This document shows positions 5,942-49,885 of a DNA stretch of 64,000 nucleotides, one piece after another. The position numbers and the translations under genes are program-made. A model generated the notes under the pieces. The model was not told the DNA's origin, ran no database searches, and saw only the letters and a list, made by a program, of their open reading frames with translations. The stretch covers positions 1,860,001 through 1,924,000 of the forward strand of contig NZ_FQWU01000002.1 in NCBI RefSeq assembly GCF_900129765.1, written 5' to 3'. Source of the stretch: Massilia sp. CF038 (GTDB lineage Bacteria > Pseudomonadota > Gammaproteobacteria > Burkholderiales > Burkholderiaceae_D). Numbering within the stretch: the first letter of the stretch is position 1; the number at the start of each line of letters is the position of its first letter.

Positions 5942-5944
5942 CAC

Positions 5945-6652: not shown

Positions 6653-6656
6653 GCGT

Positions 6657-7091: not shown

Positions 7092-7486
7092 CAGCCGCCC
7101 TGCCCTGGCAAATCCGGCACTTCGCTCATCAGCGCGAGGTGGTTGCCGTCCGGGTCCTGGAACTGCGCCAGCCACAGTGCCGACTGTTCGGTCTTGTGGA
7201 CCAGGTGCGGCGTTTGCTGGAACGGCACGCCCTTGCCCGCCAGTTCGGCATGCACGGCGTCGATGTCGGGCACGGTGAAATACACGGCCGAGCCACCGGC
7301 AATGCGCTGGCCTGGAGGTGGCACGCCAATCAGCAGGCGCAGCGCGCCACACTGGAAAAACGCCATCTGCGGCGGCGCCGCAAACAGAAACGGCAGTCCG
7401 AGGACATCGCGATAGAACGCGATGCCCCGCTCCAGATCGGCCACCGGCAGCATCAATTGTCCGATGGTCGCGTTCGACAGGTTCAT
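7091..7486 (-). CDS. VOC family protein (glyoxalase/bleomycin-resistance fold)
   Basis: 131-aa single-module vicinal oxygen chelate protein. The N-terminal half carries LPVADLERGIAFYRDVLGL, and the C-terminal half ends FQDPDGNHLALMSE, where the Glu is the usual metal ligand position. Substrate is not predictable; members include glyoxalase I, dioxygenases and resistance proteins. It is the first gene of a two-gene minus operon with the STAS-like gene, overlapping it by an ATGA junction. It starts 17 bases before the rlpA stop, so it could also be read from the cell-shape operon. Confidence 0.85.
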   Translation of the reverse strand: MNLSNATIGQLMLPVADLERGIAFYRDVLGLPFLFAAPPQMAFFQCGALRLLIGVPPPGQRIAGGSAVYFTVPDIDAVHAELAGKGVPFQQTPHLVHKTEQSALWLAQFQDPDGNHLALMSEVPDLPGQGG

Positions 7487-7502
7487 ATCTTCTCCTGAGG
7501 GT

Positions 7503-8519: not shown

Positions 8520-8533
8520 CGCGCCTCCATGGT

Positions 8534-9646
8534 CTAAGTTTGAATGAGTTTCCGGTGTCGCTGGATGCTCATCAGTATACCGATACCCAGACCCAATGTC
8601 ACAAAAGCAGTTCCGCCGTAGCTCATGAACGGCAGCGGCACGCCCACCACGGGCAGGATCCCGCTGACCATGCCCATATTGACAAAGGCGTAGGTGAAGA
8701 AAATCATGGTGATCGCCCCGGCCAGCAGGCGCGTGAACAGGTTGGGCGCGTTGGCGGCGATGATCAGGCCGCGCGCGATCAGCATCAGATAGATGAACAG
8801 CAGCCCCAGAATGCCAAGCAGGCCGAATTCTTCCGAGTACACGGAAAAAATGAAGTCAGTCGTGTGCTCGGGGATGAATTCCAGGTGCGACTGGGAACCC
8901 TGCATGTAACCCTTGCCCGAAAACCCGCCCGAGCCAATCGCAATGATCGACTGGATGATGTGGAAGCCCTTGCCCAGCGGGTCGGTGGTGGGGTCGATCA
9001 GTGTCATGACGCGCTCGCGCTGATAGTCGTGCATCATGGACCAGGCAATCGGCAGGCTGCCGGCGCCGGCGATGAACAGGCCAGCGAGTGCTTTCCACGA
9101 CAAGCCCGCCAAAAAGATCACATAAAAGCCCGAGGCCAGCACCAGCAGCGAGGTACCCAGATCGGGCTGCAGCTGGATCAGGCCAACCGGCACCACCAGC
9201 AGCGCCGCCGCCACCAGGAAGGAGTGCCAGCGCACCAGCCCACCCTTCTGGTGAAAATACCAGGCCAGCATCAGGGGCATGGCGATCTTCATGATTTCGG
9301 ACGGCTGGATATCAAAGCCGATGTGCAGCCAGCGGCGCGCGCCCTTCTTCACCACCCCGAACACAAACACCGCAATGAGCAGCGCCACGCCGAAGGTGTA
9401 GACCGGCACCGCCAGGCGCATCAGGGTCTGGGGCGGTACCAGGGCCGCGGCCCACATCACCACAAAGGCGATGACGGCATTGCGTACCTGGCCTTCCATG
9501 CGGCCCGGGAAATCGACACCCGCCGACGACATGCAGACCATGGAGACGGCCAGCAGCAGAAACAGGATCATCGCCAGCGGCCCGTCGAACACGGTGAAGT
9601 AAGGTTTCATGCGCCGCCACAGGGAGCGCCGTTCATTGATCCGCAT
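8534..9646 (-). CDS. mrdB: peptidoglycan glycosyltransferase RodA
   Basis: 370-aa SEDS-family polytopic membrane protein with about ten transmembrane helices. It polymerises lipid II in the elongasome together with PBP2. Recognisable SEDS segments include QPDLGTSLLVLASGFYVIF and the C-terminal PFMSYGGTAF. The start codon lies two bases after the mrdA stop codon, so expression with PBP2 is tightly linked. Catalytic activity as a glycosyltransferase is family knowledge. Confidence 0.97.
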   Translation of the reverse strand: MRINERRSLWRRMKPYFTVFDGPLAMILFLLLAVSMVCMSSAGVDFPGRMEGQVRNAVIAFVVMWAAALVPPQTLMRLAVPVYTFGVALLIAVFVFGVVKKGARRWLHIGFDIQPSEIMKIAMPLMLAWYFHQKGGLVRWHSFLVAAALLVVPVGLIQLQPDLGTSLLVLASGFYVIFLAGLSWKALAGLFIAGAGSLPIAWSMMHDYQRERVMTLIDPTTDPLGKGFHIIQSIIAIGSGGFSGKGYMQGSQSHLEFIPEHTTDFIFSVYSEEFGLLGILGLLFIYLMLIARGLIIAANAPNLFTRLLAGAITMIFFTYAFVNMGMVSGILPVVGVPLPFMSYGGTAFVTLGLGIGILMSIQRHRKLIQT

Positions 9647-32040: not shown

Positions 32041-33069
32041 TTAGCTGCGGGCAAACGCCAGCAGATCGGCATTCACCTTGTCCTTGTGCGTATCGGTCAA
32101 GCCGTGCGGCGCGCCTGGATACACGATCAGCTTGGCGCCCTTGACGATGGCAGCCGATGCCTTGCCCGACGCATCGATCGGCACGATCTGGTCGTCATCA
32201 CCGTGAATGATCAAGGTCGGCTTGTCGAACTTCTTCAAGTCGGCACGGAAATCCGTTTCCGAGAATGCCTTGATCGAATCATAGGTATTCTTGTGCCCCG
32301 CCATCAAGCCTTGCGTGGTCCACGACTGGATCAAGCCCTGCGATACCTTGGCACCCGGACGGTTGAAACCGAAGAAGGGACCTGAGGCAATATCCAAATA
32401 CAGCTGCGAACGGTTCGCCACCGAGCCAGCGCGAATGCCATCAAACACTTCCATCGGCAATCCACCCGGATTGTCGGCTGTTTTCAGCATCAGCGGCGGC
32501 ACTGCCGACACCAGTACCAGCTTGGCCACGCGCTTGGTGCCATGCCGTCCGACATAGCGCGCCACTTCCCCGCCACCAGTGGAAAAACCAACCAGAATCG
32601 CGTTCTTCAAGTCCAGCGCTTCAATCAGCTGGGCCAGGTCGTCGGCGTAGTGATCCATGTCATTGCCGGTCCAGGGCTGGCTGGAACGGCCATGGCCGCG
32701 ACGGTCATGCGCGATCACGCGGAAGCCGTTGTTCGCCAGGTGGAACATTTGCGATTCCCAGCTGTCGGAATTGAGTGGCCAGCCGTGCGAGAACACAATC
32801 GGCTGCCCTGCGCCCCAGTCTTTGTAGTAGAGCTCGACGCCGTCACGGGTGGTCAGTGTGCTGGAGGTGCGCGCCACCGGGCGTGCTGCGGGGGCAGCGC
32901 TGGCCGAAGCGCTCAGGCCTGCCATTGGCACCGCCACCACTGCCGCAGCTGCGGCTGCCATGCTGGCGCCACCCATCAGGGCAGAACGACGGGAGGTGCT
33001 GACAGCAGGTGCCGCCTCGGTGGCGCCAAACAGGAAGTTCTGAATTGCCGATGGGATCGCGTTTTTCAT
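32041..33069 (-). CDS. exported alpha/beta hydrolase (non-haem chloroperoxidase-like)
   Basis: 342 aa. The N-terminus contains a twin-arginine-like sequence (TSRRSALMG, about residues 25-33) followed by an Ala-rich hydrophobic stretch, so Tat export is likely. The catalytic domain starts near [16 protein letters not shown]. The nucleophile Ser is in VGFSTGGGE, the acid in HGDDDQIVP, and the His in APHGLTDTH. The core resembles cofactor-free haloperoxidases/esterases; the true substrate is unknown. It lies downstream of the OhrR-like gene on the same strand, behind two palindromes that may be operators. Confidence 0.88.
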
Positions 33070-33110
33070 GATGTGTTCTTTCTAAAAGAGTGAACCAGCT
33101 GGAATATTAG

Positions 33111-33193
33111 TTAGCGCGCTAAGCATTTGCAGGGCGCCTGGCGCCGTGTGCGCTGCCATGGGAAGAACTTTAGCGCACTAATCGTTAGTGCGC
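33111..33193. promoter_or_regulatory. paired palindromes upstream of the hydrolase, candidate OhrR operators
   Basis: TTAGCGCGCTAA at 33111-33122 is a perfect 12-bp palindrome. At 33173-33193, GCGCACTAA and TTAGTGCGC form a 9-bp inverted repeat around TCG. Both sites use the same half-site type TTAGYGCGC. They lie in the 152-bp gap between the OhrR-like gene and the hydrolase gene, 42 and 104 bases before the hydrolase start. They differ from the AT-rich sites known for other OhrR proteins, so binding is an inference. Confidence 0.5.
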
Positions 33194-33221
33194 AATCTAT
33201 TTTTTAAATTTTTTTCCGCGC

Positions 33222-33659
33222 TCATTTTTCAAGGTTGCGCGCCAGCTTGCTCAAGCCTGCCATCAAGGCTTGCATTTCGCCGGTTTGCAGATTGCACGAT
33301 TGGGCGATCTGCTGGTTCAGGCGGCCCCCCGCCTCGCGCAGCTTGCGCCCGGCATCGGTCAGGGTCAGCACCCGATTGCGCTCGTCCTTCGGATCGCGCT
33401 GGCGCAGCAGATAGCCTTCGGCCTCCAGCCGCTTGACAATGGGCGTCACCGAGCCCGAATCCTGCTCCAGGCGCATGGCCACATCGCGAATGCCCAGCCC
33501 CTCTTCTTCCCACAGCACCAGCATCACCAGGTATTGCGGATAGGTCAGACGCAGCTCGGCCAGCAGGGGCTTGTACAGCTGCGTCATCTTGAGCGAGGTC
33601 GAATACAGGTTGAAGCACAAGTGCTCCACCAACAGCGGTGGTTTGAGTGGGGTCGTCAT
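33222..33659 (-). CDS. MarR/OhrR-type organic peroxide-responsive regulator
   Basis: 145-aa winged-helix protein. The N-terminus VEHLCFNLYSTSLKMTQLYKPLL closely follows OhrR, with the peroxide-sensing Cys at 15. A second Cys at 122 (AQSCNLQ) fits the two-Cys mechanism of Xanthomonas-type OhrR, where oxidation forms an intersubunit disulfide and releases DNA. The recognition region is AMRLEQDSGSVTPIVKRLE and the wing DPKDERNRVLTL. It precedes the alpha/beta hydrolase on the same strand. No ohr gene is in the window. Confidence 0.88.
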   Translation of the reverse strand: MTTPLKPPLLVEHLCFNLYSTSLKMTQLYKPLLAELRLTYPQYLVMLVLWEEEGLGIRDVAMRLEQDSGSVTPIVKRLEAEGYLLRQRDPKDERNRVLTLTDAGRKLREAGGRLNQQIAQSCNLQTGEMQALMAGLSKLARNLEK

Positions 33660-33672
33660 GGATGGCGCTCCT

Positions 33673-34113
33673 TCATGCCAGGTGAGTCAGATTGTGCTGC
33701 ATGCGCTGCAGCAAGGCCACTGCCTGCGCCCGTTCGTCAGGCGCAAAGCCCTGCACCAGGCGCGCATCAAGCTGCTTGCGGTGCTTTTGCACTTTTTTAT
33801 GTACCAGGCTGCCGCGCTCGGTCAGGCTGAGGCGGTGGCAGCGGCGGTCGGCCGCGTCTTCGGTGCGGGCCAGCATGTCACGCTCGATCAACTGCTGGAT
33901 GGTGCGGGCGATCTGCGCCTTGTCGCGCCCACTGTGCTGGACCAGCTCGCCCTGGGTGGAACCGGGATGGCGGGCAAACCAGTTGAGCGCACGCATTTCC
34001 ATCGGCGTGATGGGGTCGCTGTCCTCGCGCAGCACTTGCTGCATGTGCGCCTTGACGCCGTGAATCACGGCGTTGAGCAGGTCGAGCACTTCTTGGTCGG
34101 GGTGGGTCGGCAT
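33673..34113 (-). CDS. MarR-family transcriptional regulator
   Basis: 146 aa. The winged helix is visible in GSTQGELVQHSGRDKAQIARTIQQL and the wing in TEDAADRRCHRLSLTERG. The ATG at 34113 (MPTHPDQEV) is chosen because longer in-frame extensions would run through the palindromic operators at 34160-34209. It is divergent from the Bcr/CflA efflux gene, a standard arrangement in which the regulator represses both. The OhrR-like gene follows on the same strand 13 bases later. Confidence 0.88.
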   Translation of the reverse strand: MPTHPDQEVLDLLNAVIHGVKAHMQQVLREDSDPITPMEMRALNWFARHPGSTQGELVQHSGRDKAQIARTIQQLIERDMLARTEDAADRRCHRLSLTERGSLVHKKVQKHRKQLDARLVQGFAPDERAQAVALLQRMQHNLTHLA

Positions 34114-34159
34114 GGTCGCATCAGAATCATCGTTGCCCCCATTATGAGGCAGCCAAAGA

Positions 34160-34209
34160 TAGTTGACAACATCAACCATCGCGCGCAAAATAGTTGTCAC
34201 AGTCAACTA
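34160..34209. promoter_or_regulatory. two inverted repeats, candidate MarR operators
   Basis: Site 1 (34160-34178) is TAGTTGA-caaca-TCAACCA. Site 2 (34191-34209) is TAGTTGTCacaGTCAACTA. Each is an imperfect 19-bp inverted repeat of the half-site TAGTTG, and their centres are 31 bases (about three helical turns) apart. They lie between the divergent marR gene and the efflux gene, 12 to 61 bases before the efflux start. Confidence 0.65.
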
Positions 34210-34220
34210 ATTAAACCGCA

Positions 34221-35423
34221 ATGCATCCCTCCGACACACGACCCCACTCCTTCTGGCTGATTCCCATTCTGGGCGCGCTGGTGGCGTTTGCCCCGCTCTC
34301 GATCGACATGTATCTGTCCGCCTTTCCGCAACTGGCGCGCGACTTTCCTTCGATGCAAGGCGTGGCCCAGTTCAGTCTGGCGTGCTACCTGATCGGGATG
34401 GCGGTGGGACAGATTTTCTACGGTCCCTTTTCCGACCGCTGCGGGCGCAAGCTGCCCCTGTATGTGGGGCTGGGCGTGTACATTGCCGGGTCGGTTGGCT
34501 GCGCGCTGGCGACCAGCCCCGAGATGCTGCTGGCCTGCCGCTTCCTGCAGGCAGCCGGCGGCTGCGCCGGCGTGGTGATTCCCATGGCGATGGTGCGCGA
34601 TATGTTCGATCAGCAATCGTCAGCGCGCACGCTGTCGCGCCTGATGCTGGTGATGGGCGTGGCCCCTATCCTGGCGCCCTGGATCGGTTCGCACGTGCTG
34701 GGCGCCTGGGGCTGGCGCGCCATCTTCTGGGTGCTGGCCATGTATGGCGTCCTGGCCATCGCCGCGGTGCATTTGATTCTCCCGGAATCGCTGGCGCCGG
34801 AGCGGCGCCGCAGTGTCTCGCTGGCGGCTTCGGCGCGTGCCTACTGGCATATGCTGAGCGAACGCCGCTTCATGGGGTATGCCCTGGCTGCCGCCTTCTC
34901 GACAGCGGGCATGTTTGCCTACATTGCCGCCTCGCCCACCGTGCTGATAGAGCACTACGGGCTCTCGCCCCAGCACTACACCTGGGTGTTCGGCATGAAT
35001 GCCTGTGGCCTGATTGCCGCGTCGCAGCTCAACCATCGCCTGCTGGCCCGGTTCACCCCGGACCGAATTCTGTGGGTCAGTCTGGGTTTGATGGCTGCAG
35101 CCGGGCTGTGCCTGCTGGTGGCCGGTGTCAGCGGCAAGGCGGCCCTGCCGGCGCTGCTGGCGGCGCTGTTCAGTTTTGTCGCCCTGCTGGGCTTTATTTC
35201 ACCCAACACGGGCGCTGGCGCCATGGCCGCGCACGGCGCCCAGGCCGGCAGCGCCTCGGCGTTGCTGGGCACGATCCGCTTCGGCATCTCCTTTTTTGCC
35301 GGCAGCGCGGTGGGTGCGTTCAGCGATGGGTCGGCCCTGACAATGGGCATTGTCATTGCCGTGTGCGGCGGCGCGGCCCTGCTGTCTTACTTGCTGCTGG
35401 CGCGCGCACCGGCGGCGGTCTAG
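34221..35423 (+). CDS. Bcr/CflA-family multidrug efflux MFS transporter
   Basis: 400-aa inner-membrane antiporter with 12 predicted helices. The N-terminus (FWLIPILGALVAFAPLSID, then MYLSAFPQLARDF) is characteristic of Bcr/CflA. GPFSDRCGRKLPLYVGLG is the MFS motif A between helices 2 and 3, and RFLQAAGGCAGVVIPMAMVRD is the drug:H+ antiporter region. Substrates of the family include bicyclomycin, chloramphenicol and sulfonamides. It is probably repressed by the divergent MarR protein. Its stop overlaps the convergent hypothetical gene. Confidence 0.93.
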   Translation: MHPSDTRPHSFWLIPILGALVAFAPLSIDMYLSAFPQLARDFPSMQGVAQFSLACYLIGMAVGQIFYGPFSDRCGRKLPLYVGLGVYIAGSVGCALATSPEMLLACRFLQAAGGCAGVVIPMAMVRDMFDQQSSARTLSRLMLVMGVAPILAPWIGSHVLGAWGWRAIFWVLAMYGVLAIAAVHLILPESLAPERRRSVSLAASARAYWHMLSERRFMGYALAAAFSTAGMFAYIAASPTVLIEHYGLSPQHYTWVFGMNACGLIAASQLNHRLLARFTPDRILWVSLGLMAAAGLCLLVAGVSGKAALPALLAALFSFVALLGFISPNTGAGAMAAHGAQAGSASALLGTIRFGISFFAGSAVGAFSDGSALTMGIVIAVCGGAALLSYLLLARAPAAV

Positions 35424-35962
35424 GGTAGCGCGGCCGGCACGCAAGGCGGGCAATGGGCTTCCATCAGCGCGATCAGGCGGTCGCGAGTGGCGTCGCTCAG
35501 CTCGAAAAACTGCTGCATGGCAGCGCGGGGAATGTCGAATTCAATGAAGAACAACCAGGGTTCGAGCACATCTTTGGCGCCAAAGGCGCTCTGGCCCGCT
35601 TCGGTCTTGCCGGTCAACACGGCGGTGACCTGATCGCTATAGTATTTCACGTCCAGCCGAATTGACTGGATCGGCCGGTAGTCGAAGGTGCCGTCGGCCG
35701 GGTGCCCCAGCGGGCCGTAAGTAAAACCGCCAACCCGGGTGCCGCTGATATCGTAGTAATAGCCTTCGGTCAGGCGCCGCACATCCTGGGTGAACAGCAT
35801 GTGTTTGCTGAAGGGCATAATCGCCAGCTGCTTGCGCGCCAGCATCCAGTCGCCCCCTTTGCGCAGCAGCAGCGAATCTTCGGCAATGAAGACGGCCACG
35901 CTATCGGCCGCCAGTTCGCCGTTGATAATGATCTTGCCTTGAAACTCGCCTTTGCAATCCAT
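35420..35962 (-). CDS. hypothetical protein
   Basis: 180 aa, not recognised. It begins MDCKGEFQGKIIINGEL and has no signal peptide or membrane helix. Alternating beta-like segments dominate the middle, and the C-terminal 40 residues are predicted helix ending in a Cys-Pro-Pro-Cys-like CPPC motif. The last four bases overlap the end of the efflux gene on the other strand. It follows the fused oxidoreductase-kinase gene by 70 bases on the same strand, so it could be co-transcribed with it. Confidence 0.7.
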   Translation of the reverse strand: MDCKGEFQGKIIINGELAADSVAVFIAEDSLLLRKGGDWMLARKQLAIMPFSKHMLFTQDVRRLTEGYYYDISGTRVGGFTYGPLGHPADGTFDYRPIQSIRLDVKYYSDQVTAVLTGKTEAGQSAFGAKDVLEPWLFFIEFDIPRAAMQQFFELSDATRDRLIALMEAHCPPCVPAALP

Positions 35963-36032
35963 GCCCGTGCTCCTGTGCCGATCCGGTTGGTGTGTCCAGC
36001 CAGTATGTTTCGAATCGGCGCTGGTGGCAATC

Positions 36033-39000
36033 TCAATCCGGCGCCAGCGGCAGACAGACGGTAAAGCAGCTGCCCTCTCCGGGGACCGATCGCACCCGCA
36101 AGCTGCCCCCGTGCTGTTCAACAATGCCGAAGGAAATGGACAAGCCCAGCCCCGTCCCCTCCCCGGTTGGCTTGGTGGTAAAGAAGGGGTCGTAGATGCG
36201 GCCCATCACGCTCTCGTCCATGCCGGCGCCGGTGTCGCGAAAATCAATGCACAGCCTCTGGTCGGCAATGCGGCTGCGGATGGTCAGCGTACCTGGCACT
36301 GCATGCGCATCAGCGCCCTTGGCTTCAATCGCCTGACAGGCATTGACGATCAGGTTCATGAAGACCTGGTTCAGCTGCGCCGCCCGGCCTTCGATCAAGG
36401 GGTCGATCTCGAGCAGGCAATCGATGTGTGCTACCCGCGAATACAGGGTGCGCACCAGTTGCACCGTGGACTGCAGGCCGGCGCCGATCCGCATCGGCTT
36501 CTTTTCCCCGTCATCCATGCGCGAAAAGGTGCCCAGGTCCTTGACCAGCGCGCGGATGCGCGCCGTGCCATCGGTGATGGTGGCCAGCTGCTGGGACAAC
36601 GCGGCAAAGCGGGTTTCCAGGCTGGCGCGCACGGCCGGCGCCGCGTCGGCGCCCGCCAGGTCCAGCAGGAACAGGCGGAAGCGTTCCAGATCTTCGGCCA
36701 TCAATTGCGCACCTGCATGTGCGTAGTTGGTCGGGTTATTGATTTCGTGCGCGATGCCGGCGCTGAGCGTGCCCAGGGCTGCCATTTTTTCGTTGAGTAC
36801 CAGCTTTTCCTGGGCGCTGGCCAGTTGCTTGTAGGCCAGCTCGGCACGGGCCTTTTCCAGTTCCACCGACTCCTTCTGCAGCACCACTTCGGAGGTGCGC
36901 TGCGCCACTTCGCGTTCGAGTTGCAGCTTTTGCCCGACCAGCGCGCGCACGCGCAGACGGTAGGCGCCGGCGATCGCTGACAGCAACAGCACCGCAGCGG
37001 CTATCCGGAACCACCAGGTGGCCCAGAACGGCGGCGTGATTTCAATGCTCAGACTGGTGCCAGCCTCGTTCCAGACCCCGTCCTTGTTGCTGCCCGTGAC
37101 GCGGAACACGTAATGGCCCGGCGCCAGGTTGGTGTAGCTGGCGAAGCGCTTGCTGGCGTCCGTGAGGACCCAATCCTTGTCGACGCCTTCCAGCTGGTAG
37201 CGGTAGGCGTTGCGGCGCGGATCGGCGAAATGCAGGGCCGCAAATTCGAGCGCAAACATGGTGTCCTTGTAGGACAGCACGGCGTGGCGCGCGTTCTGAA
37301 TCGGACCATCGAGCGAAAAGCCGTCCCGTGGACGGCCATTGCGGACCGACTCGTTGAAAATCAAAAAGTCGGTAATGCGGATTTGTGGTGCCACCGGGTT
37401 GCCGCGTACGGCGCCAGGATGCAGCAAGGTCAGGCCATCATTGAAGCTGCCGAACGCCATCACGCCGTCCGGCATGCGGTAGGCAGCGCCGACGAAATAA
37501 TCGCCCTCGGCCATGCCGTCGCGCCCCGTGTAATGGCGGAACTGGCCGCTGGCAGGGTCAAAGTTGACGATGCCGCCTTCAGTGCTGATCCATAACTGGC
37601 GCTGGTCGTCTTCCAGGATGGCATTGATGGCCGGGCTGAGCAAGCCATCCTTGGCCAGCCAGGCGCGCACCGTCAGCGAGCCGTCGGCCTCCGTGATGAT
37701 ACGGTTCAAGCCGCCGCCGGTGGCGACCCACAAGGCGCCGTCGCCGCTTTCGTGCAAATGCGAGATGCGATTGTGGCTCAGGCGCACATGGCGGAATTGT
37801 CCGGTGGCGCGGTCCAGCAAGTCCAGTCCATTCGAGGTGGCCACCCACAAACGCCCGCGGCTGTCATCGAGCACGCTCCAGACGAAATCGTCCGCCAGGC
37901 TGGCGTCATCCTGGGCGTCATGACGGTAGGTGACGGCCTGGTCGGTGCGGGTATCGAGCCGGTGCAGGCCGCCGCGCGAGGCGATCCAGAGCATCCCCTT
38001 GCGGTCCGGCACGATGGCCTGGATGAAATTGGCCGCGTTATCGCCCGTGGCAAAGGGACGCGGTGTAAAGCGGCCACGGACCGGGTCGAACTTGCTCAGC
38101 CCGCCATTACGGGTGCCGACCCACAACTGTCCGTCCACATCGCGTCCCAGCGCAGTGGCAAGATCGTCGTTGAGACTTCCGGCAACGCCGGGCTGGTGTT
38201 TGTACACGGTGACCTTGCCGCTTTGCACGTCAAGCAGATTCACGCCGCCACCGTAGGCAGCCAGCCACAGCTGGCCGGGGCCAGCGCCGAGAATCGAAAT
38301 GATCTTGTTGCTGCTCAGGCCAGCGGTCTCGGGCGGTGCGGCGGCAACGATGTGGCGAAATCCCCCACCGCTCAGGTCGATCCGGCTGGCGCCGGCAAAC
38401 CAGGTGCCGATCCACAAAATGCCGGACCGGTCGTGGAACATGCTGGAGACAAAATTATCGGCCAGGCTGGCGTTCTTGCCGGGCTGATGGACCGAGGCCA
38501 CGAACTGAGCCCGCGCCTCGTCCCAGCGCAGCAGGCCGGCTGTTTGCGTGCCTGCCCACATGGTGCCGCGCTTGTCACGAAACAGCGTGGTCACCGGGCT
38601 GGCGGGAAACCCTTCGGCGCTGCCCAGCGTGCGCCGCTGCACCGGTGTGCCATCGCGCACCTGCCACACTTCAAGGCCGACTTGCGTCCCCACCCACAAG
38701 GTCTCGCCCGGTCCCAGGGCCACGACGCGGACGGCATTGCGCTTGGGATCAGCGCCTGCGCTGGTGTCCAGCGGAAAGTGGGCAAACTGTGTGCTGCCGC
38801 GTGGAAGGTAATCGACACCGGCTGCGGTACCGATCCACAAGCCGCCCGCACTGTCGAACACCAGGCCGCTGACGTCGTCGGCGCCAAGCGAACTGCGATC
38901 GTCGGCGTGATGGCGCAGAAAGCTGGGCTGGTTGCGCGCCGGATCAAAGCGGACCAGGCCGGTACGCGTGGTCAGCCACAGCACCCCGTCGGCATCGCTG

Positions 39001-41072
39001 ACAATGTTGCGCACATCGTAGTACGCGCCTTTGCGCGCATTGGCCACGTTATTCAATGCAGCGCTAAAATTGTCGCTGCCCGCGTTGTAGCGCTGCAAGC
39101 CAGTGCGCGTGCCCACCCATAACTGACCGCGCTGGTCCTGGTGCAAGGCCTGGACCGAGTTGTCCGAGATACTGGCGGGATCGGCGGGATCGTGCTTGTA
39201 GTTCAGAAAGCGGTAGCCATCGTAGCGAATCAGGCCGCCCTGGCCTGCGAACCACATGAAGCCGTCGCGGTCTTGCAGCATGGCCGCGACCGAGGCATGG
39301 GGCAAGCCGGTTTCCGTGTTCAACTGCTCAAAGCGCAGCTCGCCTGGTGCGGATGCCAAGGCCGCGGTGCCCAGCACCAGCAGGACCAGGGCCGCCAACC
39401 AGCGCCACAGCGTGCGCTGCATCACAGCAACCCGCGGTGCGGGTCCTGCCGGTGGCACAGGTGCCGCGTAGCCCAGGATCAGGTCGGCCGCTTTTTCCGC
39501 AATCATCACCGTGGGCGCGTTGGTATTGCCACCAATCAGAGTTGGCATGATCGAGGCATCCACTACCCGCAGATGGGCAACACCGTGCACGCACAGGCGA
39601 TCGTCTACCACCGCCATGGCATCGTGCCCCATCTTGCAGGTGCCAACCGGGTGGTAAATCGTGCCTGCCTTGCGGCGGATGAAGGCTTCGATGGCGGCGT
39701 CGTCCTGCACCTCGGCGCCGGGGAACAGTTCCACACCACGATAGGTGTCAAAGGCGGGGGCAGCCAAAATGCGGCGCGCCACTTTCACGCCGCGCACCAG
39801 GCTGGCCATATCGTCCGGATGGTCGAGGTAATTGGGATCGATCAATGCCGGCGCGGCAGGATCGGCACTGGCCAGGCGGATGGTGCCCCGGCTTTTCGGC
39901 CGCAAGTCACACACGTGCAGGGCATAACCATGGCCAAACAGGGTGTACGCCGCACGCGACAAGGTGTGCCCGTGGTCATCCAGATGCGCGGGCGTGAAGT
40001 GCAGCTGCAAGTCGGGCGCCGCCAGCGCGGGAGTGCTTTTCACAAAACCACCGCCTTCAGCAGCATTGCTGGTGAACGGGCCCTTGCGGAAAAGGACGTA
40101 GTTGAAAAAGTGCAGCATCGGTGACAGCGCATTGCGCAGCGACACGCCGAGCGAGACCGCCTTGCTGCATTGATGCACCACCAGCACGTCGAGATGGTCC
40201 TGCAAGTTGTGGCCCACACCCGGCAAGGCGTGGCGCACAGGAATGCCATGGCGCGCCAGCTGGTCGGCCGGTCCAATACCGGACAGCATCAGCAATTGGG
40301 GGGAGTTAATGGCGCCGCCGCATAGCAGCACCTCGCGCTCGGCCCGCAGTTCACGCTCGCTACCGTCTTTCACAAACGCGACCCCGGTGGCACGCTTGCC
40401 TTCCATCAGGATGCGACTGGCATGCGCAGCCGTGATGACGGTCAGATTCGGACGCTGGCGGACGGGGTGCAGGTAGGCACGCGCCACGCTCCAGCGCTCG
40501 CCATTTTTCTGCGTCAGCTGGTAAGGACCGATGCCCTCTTGCTCGGCACCGCTGAAATCGTCGTTGTAGCGATAGCCGGCTTGTTGCCCTGCCTGCACGT
40601 AGATCCCCGTGAGCAGATTGCTGCTGCGCTGATCGGCCACGTTGAGCGGTCCGCCCACGCCGTGGTAAGGCGTGGCGCCGCGCTCGTGATGTTCGGCGCG
40701 TTTAAAGAGCGGCAACACGTCGGCGTAGGACCAACCGCGATTGCCCAGTGCCGCCCAGTGGTCGTAGTCGCTGGCGTGGCCGCGCGTATAGACCATCGCG
40801 TTGCTCGAGCTGCTGCCGCCAAGCGTTTTGCCACGGGGCCAGAACATACGGCGTTGTTCAAGATGTTGCTGGGGTGTGGTGAAGTAACGCCAGTTGAGCA
40901 CTTTGCTCAACATCATGAAGATGATGCCGACCGGCATATGGATCAGGGGATGGCGGTCGGCGGGCCCGGCTTCCAGCAGGCAGACAGTGACGGCCGGGTT
41001 GGCCGACAGGCGGTTGGCCAGCACACAGCCAGCGGAGCCTCCGCCCACGATCAGGTAATCATATTTTTCCAT
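36033..41072 (-). CDS. GMC oxidoreductase fused in frame to a two-component-propeller histidine kinase
   Basis: One uninterrupted 1679-aa frame. Residues 1-550 are a complete GMC (choline-dehydrogenase-like) flavoenzyme: FAD site GGGSAG at 10-15, GGSSSSN at 85-91, active-site His474 in YHPVGTCKMG and the C-terminal GGNTNAP (514-520). A short Pro/Ala linker leads to Met551 and a hydrophobic segment (RTLWRWLAALVLLVLG). Then come about 12-14 propeller blades with WVGT repeats (about 580-1230), a Y_Y_Y-like domain, a second membrane helix (about 1349-1372), a coiled coil, and a full kinase with His1442 in AHEINNP, N-box NLIVNACQA, DTGAGMDE and GEGTGLGLS. The ATG at 41072 starts the GMC part. Met551 could be a second start, but its binding site is weak. 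No receiver domain is attached. A lost stop by assembly error is the alternative. Confidence 0.85.
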   Translation of the reverse strand: MEKYDYLIVGGGSAGCVLANRLSANPAVTVCLLEAGPADRHPLIHMPVGIIFMMLSKVLNWRYFTTPQQHLEQRRMFWPRGKTLGGSSSSNAMVYTRGHASDYDHWAALGNRGWSYADVLPLFKRAEHHERGATPYHGVGGPLNVADQRSSNLLTGIYVQAGQQAGYRYNDDFSGAEQEGIGPYQLTQKNGERWSVARAYLHPVRQRPNLTVITAAHASRILMEGKRATGVAFVKDGSERELRAEREVLLCGGAINSPQLLMLSGIGPADQLARHGIPVRHALPGVGHNLQDHLDVLVVHQCSKAVSLGVSLRNALSPMLHFFNYVLFRKGPFTSNAAEGGGFVKSTPALAAPDLQLHFTPAHLDDHGHTLSRAAYTLFGHGYALHVCDLRPKSRGTIRLASADPAAPALIDPNYLDHPDDMASLVRGVKVARRILAAPAFDTYRGVELFPGAEVQDDAAIEAFIRRKAGTIYHPVGTCKMGHDAMAVVDDRLCVHGVAHLRVVDASIMPTLIGGNTNAPTVMIAEKAADLILGYAAPVPPAGPAPRVAVMQRTLWRWLAALVLLVLGTAALASAPGELRFEQLNTETGLPHASVAAMLQDRDGFMWFAGQGGLIRYDGYRFLNYKHDPADPASISDNSVQALHQDQRGQLWVGTRTGLQRYNAGSDNFSAALNNVANARKGAYYDVRNIVSDADGVLWLTTRTGLVRFDPARNQPSFLRHHADDRSSLGADDVSGLVFDSAGGLWIGTAAGVDYLPRGSTQFAHFPLDTSAGADPKRNAVRVVALGPGETLWVGTQVGLEVWQVRDGTPVQRRTLGSAEGFPASPVTTLFRDKRGTMWAGTQTAGLLRWDEARAQFVASVHQPGKNASLADNFVSSMFHDRSGILWIGTWFAGASRIDLSGGGFRHIVAAAPPETAGLSSNKIISILGAGPGQLWLAAYGGGVNLLDVQSGKVTVYKHQPGVAGSLNDDLATALGRDVDGQLWVGTRNGGLSKFDPVRGRFTPRPFATGDNAANFIQAIVPDRKGMLWIASRGGLHRLDTRTDQAVTYRHDAQDDASLADDFVWSVLDDSRGRLWVATSNGLDLLDRATGQFRHVRLSHNRISHLHESGDGALWVATGGGLNRIITEADGSLTVRAWLAKDGLLSPAINAILEDDQRQLWISTEGGIVNFDPASGQFRHYTGRDGMAEGDYFVGAAYRMPDGVMAFGSFNDGLTLLHPGAVRGNPVAPQIRITDFLIFNESVRNGRPRDGFSLDGPIQNARHAVLSYKDTMFALEFAALHFADPRRNAYRYQLEGVDKDWVLTDASKRFASYTNLAPGHYVFRVTGSNKDGVWNEAGTSLSIEITPPFWATWWFRIAAAVLLLSAIAGAYRLRVRALVGQKLQLEREVAQRTSEVVLQKESVELEKARAELAYKQLASAQEKLVLNEKMAALGTLSAGIAHEINNPTNYAHAGAQLMAEDLERFRLFLLDLAGADAAPAVRASLETRFAALSQQLATITDGTARIRALVKDLGTFSRMDDGEKKPMRIGAGLQSTVQLVRTLYSRVAHIDCLLEIDPLIEGRAAQLNQVFMNLIVNACQAIEAKGADAHAVPGTLTIRSRIADQRLCIDFRDTGAGMDESVMGRIYDPFFTTKPTGEGTGLGLSISFGIVEQHGGSLRVRSVPGEGSCFTVCLPLAPD

Positions 41073-41231
41073 TGCCAAACATTGTGCCACGAGCGCAAGT
41101 GTCTGCAGCAGCTGGCGATGCAAAGTCGGCAAGTGCGCGACGAATCCGTATGTCAGATGTAATCGGTGCTGCACTATTCTCGACGCGGCCGGTCATTCCG
41201 GCCCTTTCACCCATTCCATTTCGGAGAAACT

Positions 41232-42704
41232 ATGTACGTTTCACATACTTTGCGACGCGCGGTGCTGTGCACCACGGTCCTGGCAGCGCCAGCCTTTGCA
41301 ACCGTTACCATTGAACACAACGGCAAGAACCCCTTCCCGCTCGGCGGCAAGGTGTGGTTCCTTGGAAAGCTGGACGGTGTCGGCAAATCGATGAAATTCT
41401 CGGTCAACGGCATCCCTGGCGGTAACGCGAGCGTCGGCACCATCAATTCCCAAAACGGCGAATATATTGCGCCAATGACCATGCCGCCGAATAACGGGGT
41501 GACGGTGACCGCCACCTACCCCAGCGTCCCGCCGCAGTCCGCCAGTACCCAGCTGACCTTCCGTGCGACTACCCCGACGCCGACACCAACGCCGACGCCA
41601 ACACCGACGCCAACCCCGACACCAACCCCGACACCAACGCCCACCCCGACGCCGACGCCCACGCCAACGCCGGGCAGCCCCGCGATTGCCGGTTGCGAGA
41701 TGTTCCCCGCCACGGCGATCTTCAACACCCGCATTGACGATCTGGTGCGCTTCCCCGCGCACGCGCGCAGCAGCGCCTGGATCAGCAGCGTGGGCAACAC
41801 GCGCGCCCTGCACATGGACTTTGGCCGCAACGAAAATCAGAACGATTACGAGACCTACTACGGCATTCCTTACAATGTGGTCGACGGCACGCCAGCGACC
41901 ACCACCTGGCCCAAGGTGTCGTTCGAAATCATGGATGAGGGCAACGGCGAAGGCGTGCCCGACGAAAGCGACTGCGCTGCACCGGATGCCGCCCATACGC
42001 TGACCCGTGCTTGCACCAAGCTGAGCGTGGCCAACCGCCGCTTCCCCTTCCCGAACGACAACATCATCAAGGCCGAATACGGCGCCTGCAACGATTCGAG
42101 CGAATGTGGCGACCGCCATGTGCTGACGGTCGAGAAAGGCGCATGCCGCCTGTGGGAAAGCTACTTCACCTACAAGGTGCAGGGCACCTGGCATGCGTAC
42201 TCGACGGCGGCCTGGAACCTGCGTTCGAACCAGATGCGGCCAACAACCTGGACCTCGGGCGATGCGGCCGGGCTGCCGATTTTGCCGCTGCTGATGCGCG
42301 CGGGCGAGGCGTCGTCGGGCGAGGTACGGCATGCGCTGCGGATTACCTTCAAGGACAGTGTGCTCGACAAGAACTTCATCTGGCCAGCCACGCACGCAGC
42401 GGGCGGCGCCACCAGCGGCGGCATTCCGTTTGGCGCCCTGATGCGCCTGCGCAGCGACTTCGTCATTCCTGCCAACTGGACCACGCAGGCCAAGGCGCTG
42501 GCAACGGCCATGAAGCGTTATGGCGTGTACGTGGCCGATATCGGCAGCAACAGTTACATGACTGGCGAGCCAAGCGCGACCTGGAGCCCGGACACGATCT
42601 CGCAGTTGCAGCGGATCCAGATGGCATCGTTTGAATTTGTCGACACGCGCTCGATCACGGGCAACGCCAACTTCAACAGCAATTCCTACCAGGCAAGCTG
42701 GTAA
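41232..42704 (+). CDS. secreted Ig-like/TP-stalk protein with uncharacterised C-terminal domain
   Basis: 490 aa. A signal peptide (about 1-23, ending AFA) precedes an Ig-like module (about 24-112) almost the same as the one in the DUF1800 protein. A Thr-Pro repeat of 17 units (41571-41672) forms a rigid stalk. The C-terminal 340 residues begin AIAGCEMFPATAIFN, carry several Cys and end with KRYGVYVADIGSNS. They recall a secreted family of unknown role in soil bacteria. The ATG at 41232 has GGAG nine bases upstream. It is divergent from the GMC-kinase gene across 159 bases. Confidence 0.8.
   Translation: MYVSHTLRRAVLCTTVLAAPAFATVTIEHNGKNPFPLGGKVWFLGKLDGVGKSMKFSVNGIPGGNASVGTINSQNGEYIAPMTMPPNNGVTVTATYPSVPPQSASTQLTFRATTPTPTPTPTPTPTPTPTPTPTPTPTPTPTPTPTPGSPAIAGCEMFPATAIFNTRIDDLVRFPAHARSSAWISSVGNTRALHMDFGRNENQNDYETYYGIPYNVVDGTPATTTWPKVSFEIMDEGNGEGVPDESDCAAPDAAHTLTRACTKLSVANRRFPFPNDNIIKAEYGACNDSSECGDRHVLTVEKGACRLWESYFTYKVQGTWHAYSTAAWNLRSNQMRPTTWTSGDAAGLPILPLLMRAGEASSGEVRHALRITFKDSVLDKNFIWPATHAAGGATSGGIPFGALMRLRSDFVIPANWTTQAKALATAMKRYGVYVADIGSNSYMTGEPSATWSPDTISQLQRIQMASFEFVDTRSITGNANFNSNSYQASW
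41571..41672 (+). repeat. Thr-Pro coding repeat, 17 units, mixed codons
   Basis: Seventeen six-base units each encode Thr-Pro. The codons vary (ACC CCG, ACG CCG, ACA CCA, ACG CCA), so the DNA is less uniform than the corresponding array in the DUF1800 gene. It links the Ig-like module to the C-terminal domain. Confidence 0.9.
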
Positions 42705-42862
42705 GCAGTGTCCCCGGCGCCTGCCGGGGTGCGTATCTCGTTTTTGCTCGCGCCGAGACGCTCGAAAACGAGCAAATTCGAGATACAGAGCGGCGCCGCG
42801 CTTCCCTCCGCAGCGCAGGCAAGAAAGAATCGCTTCTCCGCAAAACGTCGCGCCCGCCCCCT

Positions 42863-42953
42863 ACATCGTCCTCGCGTAGGCGGGGACCCATAGCACTTAT
42901 GCTCAGTGGTACTCTTACTTGTCTATGGGTCCCCGCCTGCGCGAGGACGATGT
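42863..42953. repeat. palindromic repeat, diverged copy C
   Basis: The arms at 42863-42892 and 42924-42953 pair over 30 bases with one mismatch. The outer part (ACATCG-CCTCGCG-AGGCGGGG) is recognisably related to the elements at 27104 and 31860. The inner 31 bases are unrelated and lack the CCGAATTCGG hairpin. It lies between two convergent genes. Confidence 0.75.
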
Positions 42954-42980
42954 GGGTAGAGCCAACACTATGCAATCGCC

Positions 42981-43008
42981 AAAAAAAAACCGCGCCCAAG
43001 GGCGCGGC
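42981..43008 (-). terminator. rho-independent terminator of the DUF1501 gene
   Basis: On the minus strand CCGCGCCC and GGGCGCGG pair around a two-base loop (42990-42997 with 43000-43007), followed at once by nine T residues. It sits 24 bases past the DUF1501 stop and ends the DUF1800-DUF1501 transcript. Confidence 0.9.
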
Positions 43009-43031
43009 AAAGACAGAGACTTTAGTGTGAC

Positions 43032-44408
43032 TCAGCCCATGAAACCAAGATCCGTCATGGCAAACTTGCCCAATTCATTCTTGAACACTTGTCCGGCCAG
43101 CGCATCCGGATCGGCCCCGAACCAGCGGCCCAGCGTGGCGCCGAACTGCTGATTCGAGAACTGCGGAATCCACACGCCACGCCCCGTGGCATCGTCCGGC
43201 CCGCCCAGTGTGTAATCCGGAAACGCACCATACAGCCCGCCTTTGACCGCGCCGCCAATGACCAGGTGATGATTGCCCCAGCCATGGTCAGTCCCGCCCG
43301 AATTGGCCAGCAACGTGCGTCCGAAGTCCGACATGGTGAACGTGGTCACGCTGTTGCGCGTGCCAATTTCCGTCATGGCAAGCTGGAACGCTGCCATCGA
43401 CTCCGACACCCGGTGCAGCACATCCCATTGCTGGAAGGCCTGGCCGCCGTGGGTATCGAAGCCGCCGATCGACACAAAGTACACCTGCCGCCCCGGCCCC
43501 TGCGCCGCGCGCTGGCGGATCAAACGCGCCACCGTCTTCAACTGCGCGCCCAGGCTGTAGCCAGGGAACACTGTGGCAAGCGGGCTGGCGCTGTCGGCCG
43601 CCGCCAGGTCGTTGACCAGATCCATGCCTTGCAGCAGCGCCTTGTTGGCCGCGTTGGCGATCAGATTCGGATTCTCGCTGGCCAGAATCTGGCGCAACGC
43701 GGCGCGCCTGGTGTCCGCCTCGGCCTGCGGCCAGAACGTCATGCCCGCCAGACCCAGCCTGCCACTCTCGGGCAGGCGGTTGCCGTGCACGCTGCCGCCT
43801 TCCACGAACAAGCCGCCGGCGCCGACCGAGACCGCATCAAGCCGTCCTCCACTGCCAAGCACATCAAGCAGACGGCCGCCCCAGCCAGTGCCTGCACCGG
43901 CCGGGCTGCCCGCCTGATTTTGCAAGGTCTGGTCCGGATGCGAAAACAGCTGTGGCGGCACACCGGTACCAGCAGCGTACTGGGCTTTGGTGAGCGGCTG
44001 GCGCAAATTGCCCACGTTGAGCACTGCGGCCACTTCGCCCTGCCCGAACAAGGCATCAATCTCGGGCAAGCCGTAGTGGAAACCGAAGGCTTGCTGCACA
44101 GGATTCGGCGTGGCCTGCAGCATGGCACTACGGCCGGCAAGCAGGGTCTTGGCCGAGGTTGACAGCGCCAGCCCGGCAGCACTGCGCGCGCTGTTGTATT
44201 TGGCGTAGCGGTTGGCATCGAGCGGCACGATCAGGTTGTTCCCATCGTTGCCGCCAAACAGGTACAAGCACACCAGCGCCTTGTAATCGCTGACAGCGGC
44301 CTGGGCAGGCGCAGCCCCCAGCAATCCCATGGTGCCGAGTGTGCCCAGCATGCTGACCTGGGCAGAATTGCGCAGAAAGCCGCGGCGCGAAGCGTTTGTT
44401 GGTTTCAT
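43032..44408 (-). CDS. DUF1501 family exported protein
   Basis: 458 aa with a twin-arginine signal ([13 protein letters not shown], Arg pair at 8-9) and a hydrophobic stretch ending AQAA. The mature part starts [21 protein letters not shown], the hallmark of DUF1501, an alkaline-phosphatase-superfamily-like fold of unknown function. GGFDTHGGQ and [20 protein letters not shown] are further conserved segments with possible metal ligands. Two adjacent ATGs exist; 44408 is preferred because AAGGAA is better spaced from it than from 44411. It lies 16 bases after the DUF1800 gene and pairs with it in many genomes. Confidence 0.88.
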
Positions 44409-44424
44409 CATGTTTCCTTTTGGG

Positions 44425-46581
<2,157 letters not shown>

Positions 46582-46698
46582 CACAACCTCCATGTCCTTG
46601 GCCTGCCGGACGGCAGAGCGAAGGACATGATTGCAAACGCGTCGTTACGGATGCCTTACAAAATTTGAATTATTAATAGAACGATATTCAAATAAGCG

Positions 46699-49600
46699 CT
46701 ATCTGTTGCTTGCTTCCTTCAAACCCAGCGACACCGCCAGTTTTTCGGTTTCCAGCGAGGGCGCCACGCCCAGCACGATCGACAGCGTATCGCGGCAGCG
46801 GCGGTAAGCGCCGAACGCGGCGGCGGTGCCATCCTTTTGACGGGCACAGCGCATCCAGCCGCGGTAATTCGCTTCCGACAAGGGCTCCGCCTCCAGCGCG
46901 CGCTGGTACAAGCCCAGCGCCGTCTCCCATTCAGCGCCCGCCTCCAGATCCTGGCCCAGCCGGGCCACCGCAGCGAGAAAGACGTTGCGTGCACGGTCGC
47001 GCATGGGCAGGATCCAGCTGTCTTCGATGCCGTCGCAGAAAGGACCGCGGTACAGCGCCAGCAAGGACGCGGCAAGGCGGCGGATATCGTCGACCGGTGC
47101 CGCCGCTGGCAAGCTGGCAATGGTCAGACAAAGGGCATCCAGCGCCGCCACATCGGACCACACCTGCGCCTCGTTGAGCCAGATTCGTCCACCTGCAACC
47201 GTGACCGCGTCGTCACTTCTGAGCAGCTTGCGCAGCCGGTGCAGCGTGACATTGAGGGCCGAGCGCGCCACGTCGGCATTGCCCCATAACTGGCTGACCA
47301 GCGATGGCTGGGTGCGCCCACCCTCGCCTGCCGCCACCAGGCTTTTCAGCAGGGTCAGAGGACGCTGCTGGGCCTTGCCACTTGGCGCCAGCTCGGTGCC
47401 GGCCAGGGCTATTTCAAATTTGCCCAGCGTGCGCACCGCCACTGGCCATGGCCAGCCTGGCACCGAACGGTGCGGCGACACCAGACTCTGGCGGGTGGCG
47501 ATAGCTGCAGCGTAAGTGCTGTCGATCTCGTTTTCCAGCGCCAGCGCGACGATCCGGGCGGCCAGCTGCGGCAGAGCGGCAAACAGGAGCGCGCCACGGC
47601 GGCGGCGATGGGCCTGCAGCGCGGCCTGCAAGGCTTCACGCGCAGCGCCAGTGTCGCCTTGCTGCGCGTGCGCGCAGGCTTGAATGAACAAGGCCTCCTC
47701 GCGAAGCAGCGCCAGCTGCACGCCGCCTGCCAGATCGGCGGCAGCGCCATAGCAGCGCGCCGCGCCGTCGAAGTCGCCCTGCCATGCCAGGCAGGCGCCC
47801 AGCAGCGCCTCGCACGTGGCGCGCTCGGATGGCGGCATGCCGGCGTCGTAAGCGAAACGCACCGTGGTGCGGGCCGCGTCGAGCGCGCCGGCCAGGTGAC
47901 CAGACAAGGCATGCCAGTGCGTGTCGAGCAGGCTCCATTCGGCCAGCGCACGCCCGGCTGCGGGCATCATTTGATCGAGCACGGTGCGTGCCGCAGCCAG
48001 TTCGCCCGTGTCAATCAGGTGCCGCGCGTGCAGTGCCTGATCTTGCGCGCCGTCGCTGCCGATCAGGCGCGCGGCCATCATTACCTCTTGCGCGCGCTCT
48101 TGCTGGCCTTCCTTGTTGTACCAGCGTGCCACGTGACGCAGCCAGCGCACCTGGTCAAGCGCGCTCGCATGCTCGACCTGCGCCAGCTGCGTGATCAGCG
48201 CGCCGGCGCGCGCCGCGTTGTCGCTCATATCGAAGTAGCGCAGCACGATCGCGCCCGCCGCAAGCAATTCCGATGCTTGCGCGACAGGCTGCATGGCGGC
48301 CAGGGTACGTTCGCAGCACGCAGTCAGCCGCGCCTGATCCGGCACGCCAGCCAGCAGCGCACACAGAAGACGCGAGTGCACACGCAACAGGGCCACCGGA
48401 TCGGACCACAGCGCTGCGTCTTCGGCGCCTGCAGCCAGTACCTCGCGCCACTGTTCCAATCCGGCTGGATCGGCCCAATCGGCCTCGTAACTATCGACAA
48501 TGGCAGCCGCAGCCAGCAGTTGATCGACCCGCTGGCCGGATTGCCGGAATGCCGCTTCTGCTTTCATCAGCAGCGTTCTTGCATGCCGGGGCCGCAGCTC
48601 GACCAGCGACATGCCATGCCAGTAATCGAGCTGCGGCATCGCTTGCGCGAGCATTGCATCCAGACTGCTTAGCCACAGGCGCCAGCTTTCGCCACGGCCC
48701 ATGGCCAGCATGCCCGCGGCAGTGCGCACCAGGAAGCGCGCAAACGCCGCTGCATCGCCGGCTTCCTGGAACAAGCGCTCTGCCTCGTCCAGCCGGCCGC
48801 TTTGCTCCATCAGCACAGCCGCGCGTCCGCTCATGGCCGTCAGTGCCGATGCCTCGAGCTCACTGCGAGCCCGCCCCCGCAGAAAGTCGCCAAACAGCGG
48901 ATGGAATTGATAGATGCCGTCGCTGCTGCGCTCAACAAACTGGCGCGTACGGCATAACTGCGCCATCAGGCGCGGCGCCGCGTCTGCGCCGGCCAGTCCA
49001 CCAATGTCGGCCTGCGCCAGCGAGGGCGCGCAAGACAGCAGCAACAACGCATGCCGGTCAGGCGCAGCCATCGGGCCCAGGACTTCGCCCTCAAAATAGC
49101 GGAACACAGCGTCCACGCCGCCGGCGCGCAGCATCGCTAGCGCCGCCGGCCAGCCTGCCGCAAGCGCCACCCAGGCGTCGGCGCTGTCGCCCGCGCCAGC
49201 CATGGCAAACGCTTCATCGCCCTGGGCGCGCAGAACATCCCAGTCCAGCACCGTCAGCGTGCCACCAAGTTCGAGCCGCGCCAGTCTGGCAGGCGGGGTA
49301 TCGCGGCTCAGCGCCAGCAGCGTCACACCATCCGGTACTTCGCTGAACGCGTACTCGAGCAGCTGGCCGGCGTTATCCCAATCAAACTCCTGCAAATTGT
49401 CGAGAACCAGGACCGCGCCGGTCGGCAAGGCCGCATAAAAGGTACGGAAGAACAGACGCGCGAAACCGGCCGCGCCGCTATGCAGATCCGGCGCCTGCCA
49501 TGCCATGCAGCCGTCGAGCTTGCGCAAGGCTTCGGAGAAATAGAAGAACAAGGTACCGGGATCGGCGTCCGCGGCATCGATGCGGCACCAGATCGCTGGC

Positions 49601-49821
49601 GCGCGGTCATGTTCCAGCCAGCTTGCCGCCAGCGTCGACTTGCCCGCGCCCGGCGGTGCCGCCAGCCAGATCACGCGGTGCTGCAAGCGCAACTGGCCGA
49701 TCAGCGCAAACAGACGCGCACGCGCCAGCACGCCCTGCACGCGCGGGGGCGTGAGCTTTGCATACCTGGTTGGCGGGAATTGCGGCGCTACCGCCGCCAG
49801 CCTTTTCGCAGTCGATCGCAT
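46699..49821 (-). CDS. large STAND-like NTPase regulator with C-terminal wHTH-BTAD
   Basis: 1040-aa MalT/BTAD-type transcription factor. Walker A is APPGAGKST (about 55-63), and a Walker B-like AVLVLDNLQEF is near 140. The middle is a long array of TPR-like helices (about 330-790). The C-terminus has an OmpR-type winged helix (VRTLGKFEIALAGTELA, LNVTLHRLRKLL) and a bacterial transcriptional activation domain to the end. Such proteins sense an inducer through the TPR region and activate nearby genes. It lies directly upstream of the DUF1800-DUF1501 pair on the same strand, a plausible target. Its inducer is unknown. Confidence 0.85.
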   Translation of the reverse strand: MRSTAKRLAAVAPQFPPTRYAKLTPPRVQGVLARARLFALIGQLRLQHRVIWLAAPPGAGKSTLAASWLEHDRAPAIWCRIDAADADPGTLFFYFSEALRKLDGCMAWQAPDLHSGAAGFARLFFRTFYAALPTGAVLVLDNLQEFDWDNAGQLLEYAFSEVPDGVTLLALSRDTPPARLARLELGGTLTVLDWDVLRAQGDEAFAMAGAGDSADAWVALAAGWPAALAMLRAGGVDAVFRYFEGEVLGPMAAPDRHALLLLSCAPSLAQADIGGLAGADAAPRLMAQLCRTRQFVERSSDGIYQFHPLFGDFLRGRARSELEASALTAMSGRAAVLMEQSGRLDEAERLFQEAGDAAAFARFLVRTAAGMLAMGRGESWRLWLSSLDAMLAQAMPQLDYWHGMSLVELRPRHARTLLMKAEAAFRQSGQRVDQLLAAAAIVDSYEADWADPAGLEQWREVLAAGAEDAALWSDPVALLRVHSRLLCALLAGVPDQARLTACCERTLAAMQPVAQASELLAAGAIVLRYFDMSDNAARAGALITQLAQVEHASALDQVRWLRHVARWYNKEGQQERAQEVMMAARLIGSDGAQDQALHARHLIDTGELAAARTVLDQMMPAAGRALAEWSLLDTHWHALSGHLAGALDAARTTVRFAYDAGMPPSERATCEALLGACLAWQGDFDGAARCYGAAADLAGGVQLALLREEALFIQACAHAQQGDTGAAREALQAALQAHRRRRGALLFAALPQLAARIVALALENEIDSTYAAAIATRQSLVSPHRSVPGWPWPVAVRTLGKFEIALAGTELAPSGKAQQRPLTLLKSLVAAGEGGRTQPSLVSQLWGNADVARSALNVTLHRLRKLLRSDDAVTVAGGRIWLNEAQVWSDVAALDALCLTIASLPAAAPVDDIRRLAASLLALYRGPFCDGIEDSWILPMRDRARNVFLAAVARLGQDLEAGAEWETALGLYQRALEAEPLSEANYRGWMRCARQKDGTAAAFGAYRRCRDTLSIVLGVAPSLETEKLAVSLGLKEASNR

Positions 49822-49885
49822 GGTGGTTCAAGTCTTTGCATGGATGCTGGCCGGGCCGGCGGATCGCGCTCGGTGGCCTGTGAAG

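Follow-up and report, generated by a model that had tools for sequence, protein, structure and literature searches.

The window, i.e. the whole 64,000-nucleotide stretch of the Massilia sp. CF038 genome analysed here, carries on its minus strand (41072-36033) a single open frame of 1679 codons, which runs from an ATG at 41072 to a stop at 36035-36033 with no internal stop in the ORF reading (Table 1). An initial annotation of the same DNA had reported this stop-free frame without giving its strand, and our reading agrees with it in length. A GTG also lies in frame upstream of the ATG, at 41174. The 1679-residue product opens with a complete GMC (BetA-like) enzyme, passes through a short linker, and ends in a complete propeller sensor kinase that starts at Met551. 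The joined locus is present as a single copy at full identity in its own genome, an assembly of 14 contigs with 100% completeness.

Table 1. Features of the joined open frame and of the gene that diverges from it (window positions; residues numbered from the ATG at 41072).
Feature	Position	Strand	Basis
Joined open frame, 1679 aa + stop	36033..41072	-	ORF reading
GMC oxidoreductase half, residues 1-536, choline-dehydrogenase-like subfamily	39465..41072	-	Pfam, PRK02106, solo relatives
Linker, residues 537-550 (APVPPAGPAPRVAV), atypical codons	39423..39464	-	Codon log-odds
Complete propeller sensor kinase half from Met551, residues 551-1679	36033..39422	-	Solo same-genus relatives
Hydrophobic segment 554-572	39357..39413	-	Hydropathy; N-termini of solo relatives
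Y_Y_Y domain 1282-1345, end of periplasmic propeller region	37038..37229	-	Pfam
Second hydrophobic segment 1349-1367	36972..37028	-	Hydropathy
HATPase_c domain 1564-1677	36042..36383	-	Pfam
Divergent neighbour gene, likelier ATG near 41232 (from translation)	41166..42704	+	Conserved beside solo kinases

The GMC half is complete, as had been proposed. GMC_oxred_N matches residues 4-294 at 200.4 bits (Pfam cut-off 23) and GMC_oxred_C residues 392-525 at 143.6 bits (cut-off 24.6), and the active-site histidine and GGNTNAP segment named in the initial annotation are found: YHPVGTC, which we take to be the GMC active-site motif, starts at 473 and thus places the histidine at 474, and GGNTNAP starts at 514. 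The PRK02106 subfamily model (NCBIfam) covers residues 2-536 at 675.2 bits, above its cut-off of 605. The substrate of this half is not settled, because its score against the choline dehydrogenase equivalog (BetA, TIGR01810) is 583.7 bits, below the curated cut-off of 732.1. Solo GMC relatives in the family are 62-77% identical to it.

The kinase half exceeds the Pfam curated cut-offs for Reg_prop (159.2 vs 20.4 bits), Y_Y_Y (69.1 vs 26.6) and HATPase_c (82.6 vs 26.4), and contains GIAHEINNP at 1439, LNQVFMNLIVNACQ at 1567, DTGAGMD at 1613, and GTGLGLS at 1639, which we take to be the H, N and G boxes. The claim that all kinase boxes are present holds for the H-, N- and G-box-like motifs and HATPase_c, but Pfam HisKA gave no match in the joined protein at E 0.001, and the phospho-acceptor region is assigned from GIAHEINNP together with kinase models and chains whose matches begin at about residue 1413 or 1416. 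A Pfam scan of the 9 neighbouring ORFs (32041-49827) found no response regulator; a nearby cognate regulator is not required of every kinase. The residue numbers given earlier for the catalytic histidine and for the first hydrophobic segment (551-570) hold, the latter being computed here at 554-572.

Comparison with solo relatives suggests that neither gene was trimmed when the two were joined. The kinase occurs alone in three other genomes of the genus (G002, G006, and G016; 62-63% identical), and the distance from Met551 to LRFEQLN is 28 residues here against 27 in each solo kinase, with a signal-type segment at the N-terminus of each solo kinase and of the window kinase half. Solo GMC proteins stop 7-22 residues past EKAADLI in 12 of 16 loci (the remaining 4 gave no motif match, hence no readable end), and the window GMC has 18 residues between this motif and the kinase Met. 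Because the kinase start is equivalent and the GMC tail is of normal length, the GMC stop alone appears to be missing. Taken together, the solo kinase loci and the GMC tails point to a GMC unit that lies between the kinase gene and its usual neighbour and has lost its stop.

The 14 linker codons before Met551 have a codon log-odds of -7.9, a value as low or lower being reached by 552 of 67,258 14-codon windows in 130 genes and by none of the 130 gene ends; the codon model is somewhat harsh on low-GC3 linkers, since it was trained only on those long ORFs that have GC3 > 0.7 (130 of 178). The actual frame scores -4.4 over 18 codons and the +1 frame -3.35 over 17, where gene ends average +6.67, and none of the three frames scores as coding. 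As no frame of the linker looks coding, we read it as former non-coding DNA; specifically, it looks like intergenic DNA that may have been turned into coding sequence. A consensus scan, in itself weak evidence, found no promoter or terminator within 39380-39700.

The same codons bear on the strongest of the alternatives, i.e. that a one-base indel before 39422 hides a stop, so that the GMC gene would end at a TGA overlapping the kinase ATG (TGATG), as an operon overlap. A one-base error could create the join because the +1 linker frame ends in exactly this TGA; that frame also has G or C at the third position in 16 of 17 codons (10 of 18 in the actual frame), the linker codons score poorly as they are read, and the join occurs in one genome only. 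However, the +1 frame scores poorly as well, no linker frame looks coding, and a TG before an ATG is likely a chance match. Frame errors are also not common in this assembly: a scan of 464 kb of the same genome, with a crude frame-change model whose non-coding training comprised 4969 bases, returned 59 internal events, of which 51 are compatible with overlapping starts and stops, 5 pass directly to a stop codon, and 3 are left as candidate frameshifts. We thus regard an assembly error as unlikely, while the missing stop is known from one assembly, that of the single strain sampled from the species.

Gene order around the solo kinases places the GMC gene as the odd element of the locus. In all three relatives the solo kinase is divergent from a gene 71-73% identical to the window gene at 41166-42704 (L175, L176, and L177); this window gene carries a long proline-threonine repeat and gave no match to a Pfam family. 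In 3 of 3 relatives, gene order follows that of the window as far as about 49.8 kb, and in the two whose loci were extended there is also a 70% match to the gene at window positions 50.5-53 kb. DUF1501 and DUF1800 genes adjoin at window positions 43032-46644, in an order that is kept next to the solo kinase in the three relatives. The 20-kb loci of the solo kinases contain no GMC match at E 1e-5 and, conversely, no orthologue of the window kinase is found in the 16 GMC loci checked, 2 of which (L040 and L169) have a more distant propeller or kinase stretch (37-38% identity) that is not joined to the GMC gene. The initial annotation had held that relatives with a stop between the halves would speak against a fusion; what the relatives show is a separation of another form, with the halves at separate loci.

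In L040 (Pseudoduganella aquatica), a propeller gene at 5911-9183 has the strand of the solo GMC gene and precedes it by about 1.5 kb; its C-terminal part is GGDEF-like by eye. At window positions 33222-34206, a tandem pair of MarR-type regulator genes diverges from the gene of an MFS transporter at 34221.

The synteny is one-sided, because the ORFs on the downstream side of the kinase (window 20-36 kb) gave no match that passed the filter in any of the 17 relative loci. At base level, the leader of the GMC gene is faintly similar to the three kinase leaders, with 9, 68, and 192 of 500 shuffles, respectively, scoring as high as the real sequence, which is significant for one, and the linker showed no similarity (171, 414, and 484 of 500 shuffles as good). 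With leader similarity this weak and none in the linker, the edges of an insertion are undefined, and the GMC unit is not flanked by strong direct or inverted repeats. Judged from gene order, the GMC gene was probably inserted between the kinase and its neighbour, and we infer a gain in this lineage in preference to a loss in the three relatives.

The window GMC may have arisen by relocation, replacement, or gain. In 5 of 12 family GMC loci (L174, L178, L179, L180, and L181), the GMC gene is directly followed by a gene with a GATGFIG-type start, presumably SDR-like, and a gene of this type (61-65% identical) lies in the window's own genome on contig C6 near 669.5 kb (L183:7445-9454) with no GMC gene beside it. 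Further flanking genes of the five family loci are found nearby. The tree leaves the window GMC unplaced, its nearest rows by path being G036, G345, and G337, which fall outside the five loci, and relocation within the genome was not preferred over the other two origins.

Searches for other joined copies returned the window's own genome and no other. Within the genus, a joined match occurs in 1 of 17 genomes, i.e. in none of the 16 others, and the family sample gives 1 of 392 (0 of 391 others) with a 369-residue junction query at E 1e-90. A query with residues 1-1679 likewise recovers only the own genome among the matches listed for the family, and the order (1 of 399), phylum (1 of 398), and class (1 of 360) samples each yield the same genome. 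These samples overlap and the thresholds are strict; two candidates were scored per genome in the order, phylum, and 1-1679 family searches, and joins in which both the GMC and the kinase are more distant could escape them. A named scan of relatives kept 80 of 370, and records of the own genome may be left out of it. In addition to the solo kinases, a GMC gene stands alone in G001, of the same genus, at 69% identity.

Two further candidates for a fusion in the genus or family were rejected. The solo kinase of G006 lies in an open frame of 1663 codons that reads upstream through the divergent leader and the neighbour, and a GMC gene of G109 lies in one of 1504 codons with about 950 residues, non-genic by eye, before a clear GMC start.

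The initial annotation had called the domain combination unfamiliar and proposed a search for homologues with both domains in one chain. The genus-to-phylum genome searches bear out the first point, and the second produced the own genome only. A full-text literature search yielded no report of a GMC-kinase fusion by title or abstract start, which does not prove its absence from print. An established fusion keeps its domain order in several species, and among the genomes searched the order is seen here in the own genome only.

We find the best explanation, with a probability of roughly 60%, to be that two complete and normally separate genes were joined head to tail in one lineage through loss of the GMC stop; the likeliest account of the locus is that a stop separating two complete genes, each of a known kind, was lost recently and in a single lineage. 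As to the order of events, we infer that a GMC dehydrogenase gene came to sit between the gene of the sensor kinase and the divergent gene that usually adjoins it, and that loss of the GMC stop let the frame continue across 18 tail and linker residues to the Met and signal peptide of the kinase. On the simplest model, the halves would keep acting as a cytoplasmic BetA-like alcohol/choline-type dehydrogenase and as an ordinary propeller histidine kinase with a periplasmic sensor. The kinase would be made from its retained start at 39422 or within the 1679-residue chain, and in the long chain the former signal peptide might serve as an internal membrane anchor or be cut by signal peptidase. The ALA in TAALASAPGEL is presumably a candidate cut site, with cleavage after ALA.

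The internal start is consistent with production of the kinase by itself. The anti-Shine-Dalgarno energy is -3.3 at 39422 and -1.5 at the GMC start (41072), compared with medians of -3.25 for 126 uncurated gene starts and -2.3 for 500 random sites. The ribosome-binding site at 39422 is thus of average strength for this genome and exceeds that of the GMC start, and the kinase may still be made alone. This overturns the description of the site as weak and removes support from the view that separate translation is not favoured.

Segment 554-572, a probable signal peptide in the solo relatives, may act here as a transmembrane or internal signal segment. Together with segment 1349-1367, it would allow the GMC and kinase domains to lie inside and the propeller outside, so that the topology put forward earlier, with a cytoplasmic GMC and kinase and a periplasmic propeller, is a possible one. 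Such an arrangement, the shared frame, and the complete domains and motifs of both halves would also suit a working chimera, in which a cytoplasmic GMC modulates the kinase by its flavin redox state or substrate through the membrane-anchored chain. A newly born flavoenzyme-gated kinase would have captured the GMC on its upstream side, and the signal peptide, now internal, would either tether the cytoplasmic redox enzyme to the periplasmic propeller and the cytoplasmic kinase or be cut, both proteins then arising at a fixed ratio from a single translation product. Against this stand the lack of any other joined copy in the genomes searched, a linker that does not look selected as coding DNA, the kinase's full signal-type segment and its own start of average strength, and the position of the GMC at the opposite end of the chain from the kinase domain. 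We consider both this modulation and the gated kinase improbable. Of the initial interpretation, the in-frame join, a possible topology, and a combination unseen elsewhere thus persist, but the disfavoured separate translation does not, and the reporting from enzyme to sensor has no backing from conservation and no support beyond the shared frame and the possible topology.

An old joined gene, since split or lost in relatives, is very improbable: the leader that separates the GMC start from the neighbour is faintly similar to the kinase leaders and the position of the window GMC in the tree is not firm, but separate losses would be needed in 16 of 16 other genus genomes, and the linker looks new.

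If the frame is real, loss of the GMC stop would have produced a very young join in which each parent gene is still whole, while three relatives keep the kinase locus unjoined, and would offer a useful case for how bacterial multidomain sensors begin and for the fate of a signal peptide that comes to lie inside a chain. If an indel is responsible, the locus is an ordinary annotation trap. Neither a real join nor an indel would alone establish a new kind of sensor.

Each half resembles a well-known class of protein. Residues 2-536 align from end to end with BetA-like GMC oxidoreductases, the two GMC domains and the motifs included, and the best structure match is PDB 9lq0, an oxygen-dependent choline dehydrogenase; the difference is that the C-terminus of the joined protein runs on into the kinase. 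Likewise, the second half shares the propeller repeats, Y_Y_Y, membrane segment, and kinase core of two-component-propeller sensor histidine kinases (PDB 4a2l and 3v9f match the propeller, 8vc9 and 5idj the kinase core), but an enzyme precedes it in frame, and its best whole-kinase relatives are solo. For the joined chain, CbrA of Pseudomonas putida is reported to have an SLC5 transporter-like domain N-terminal of a sensor kinase in one chain (PMC7096432). As here, a metabolic-protein domain precedes the sensor kinase; in CbrA the domain is a transporter and the gene is established, whereas here it is a flavoenzyme, joined in one genome only.
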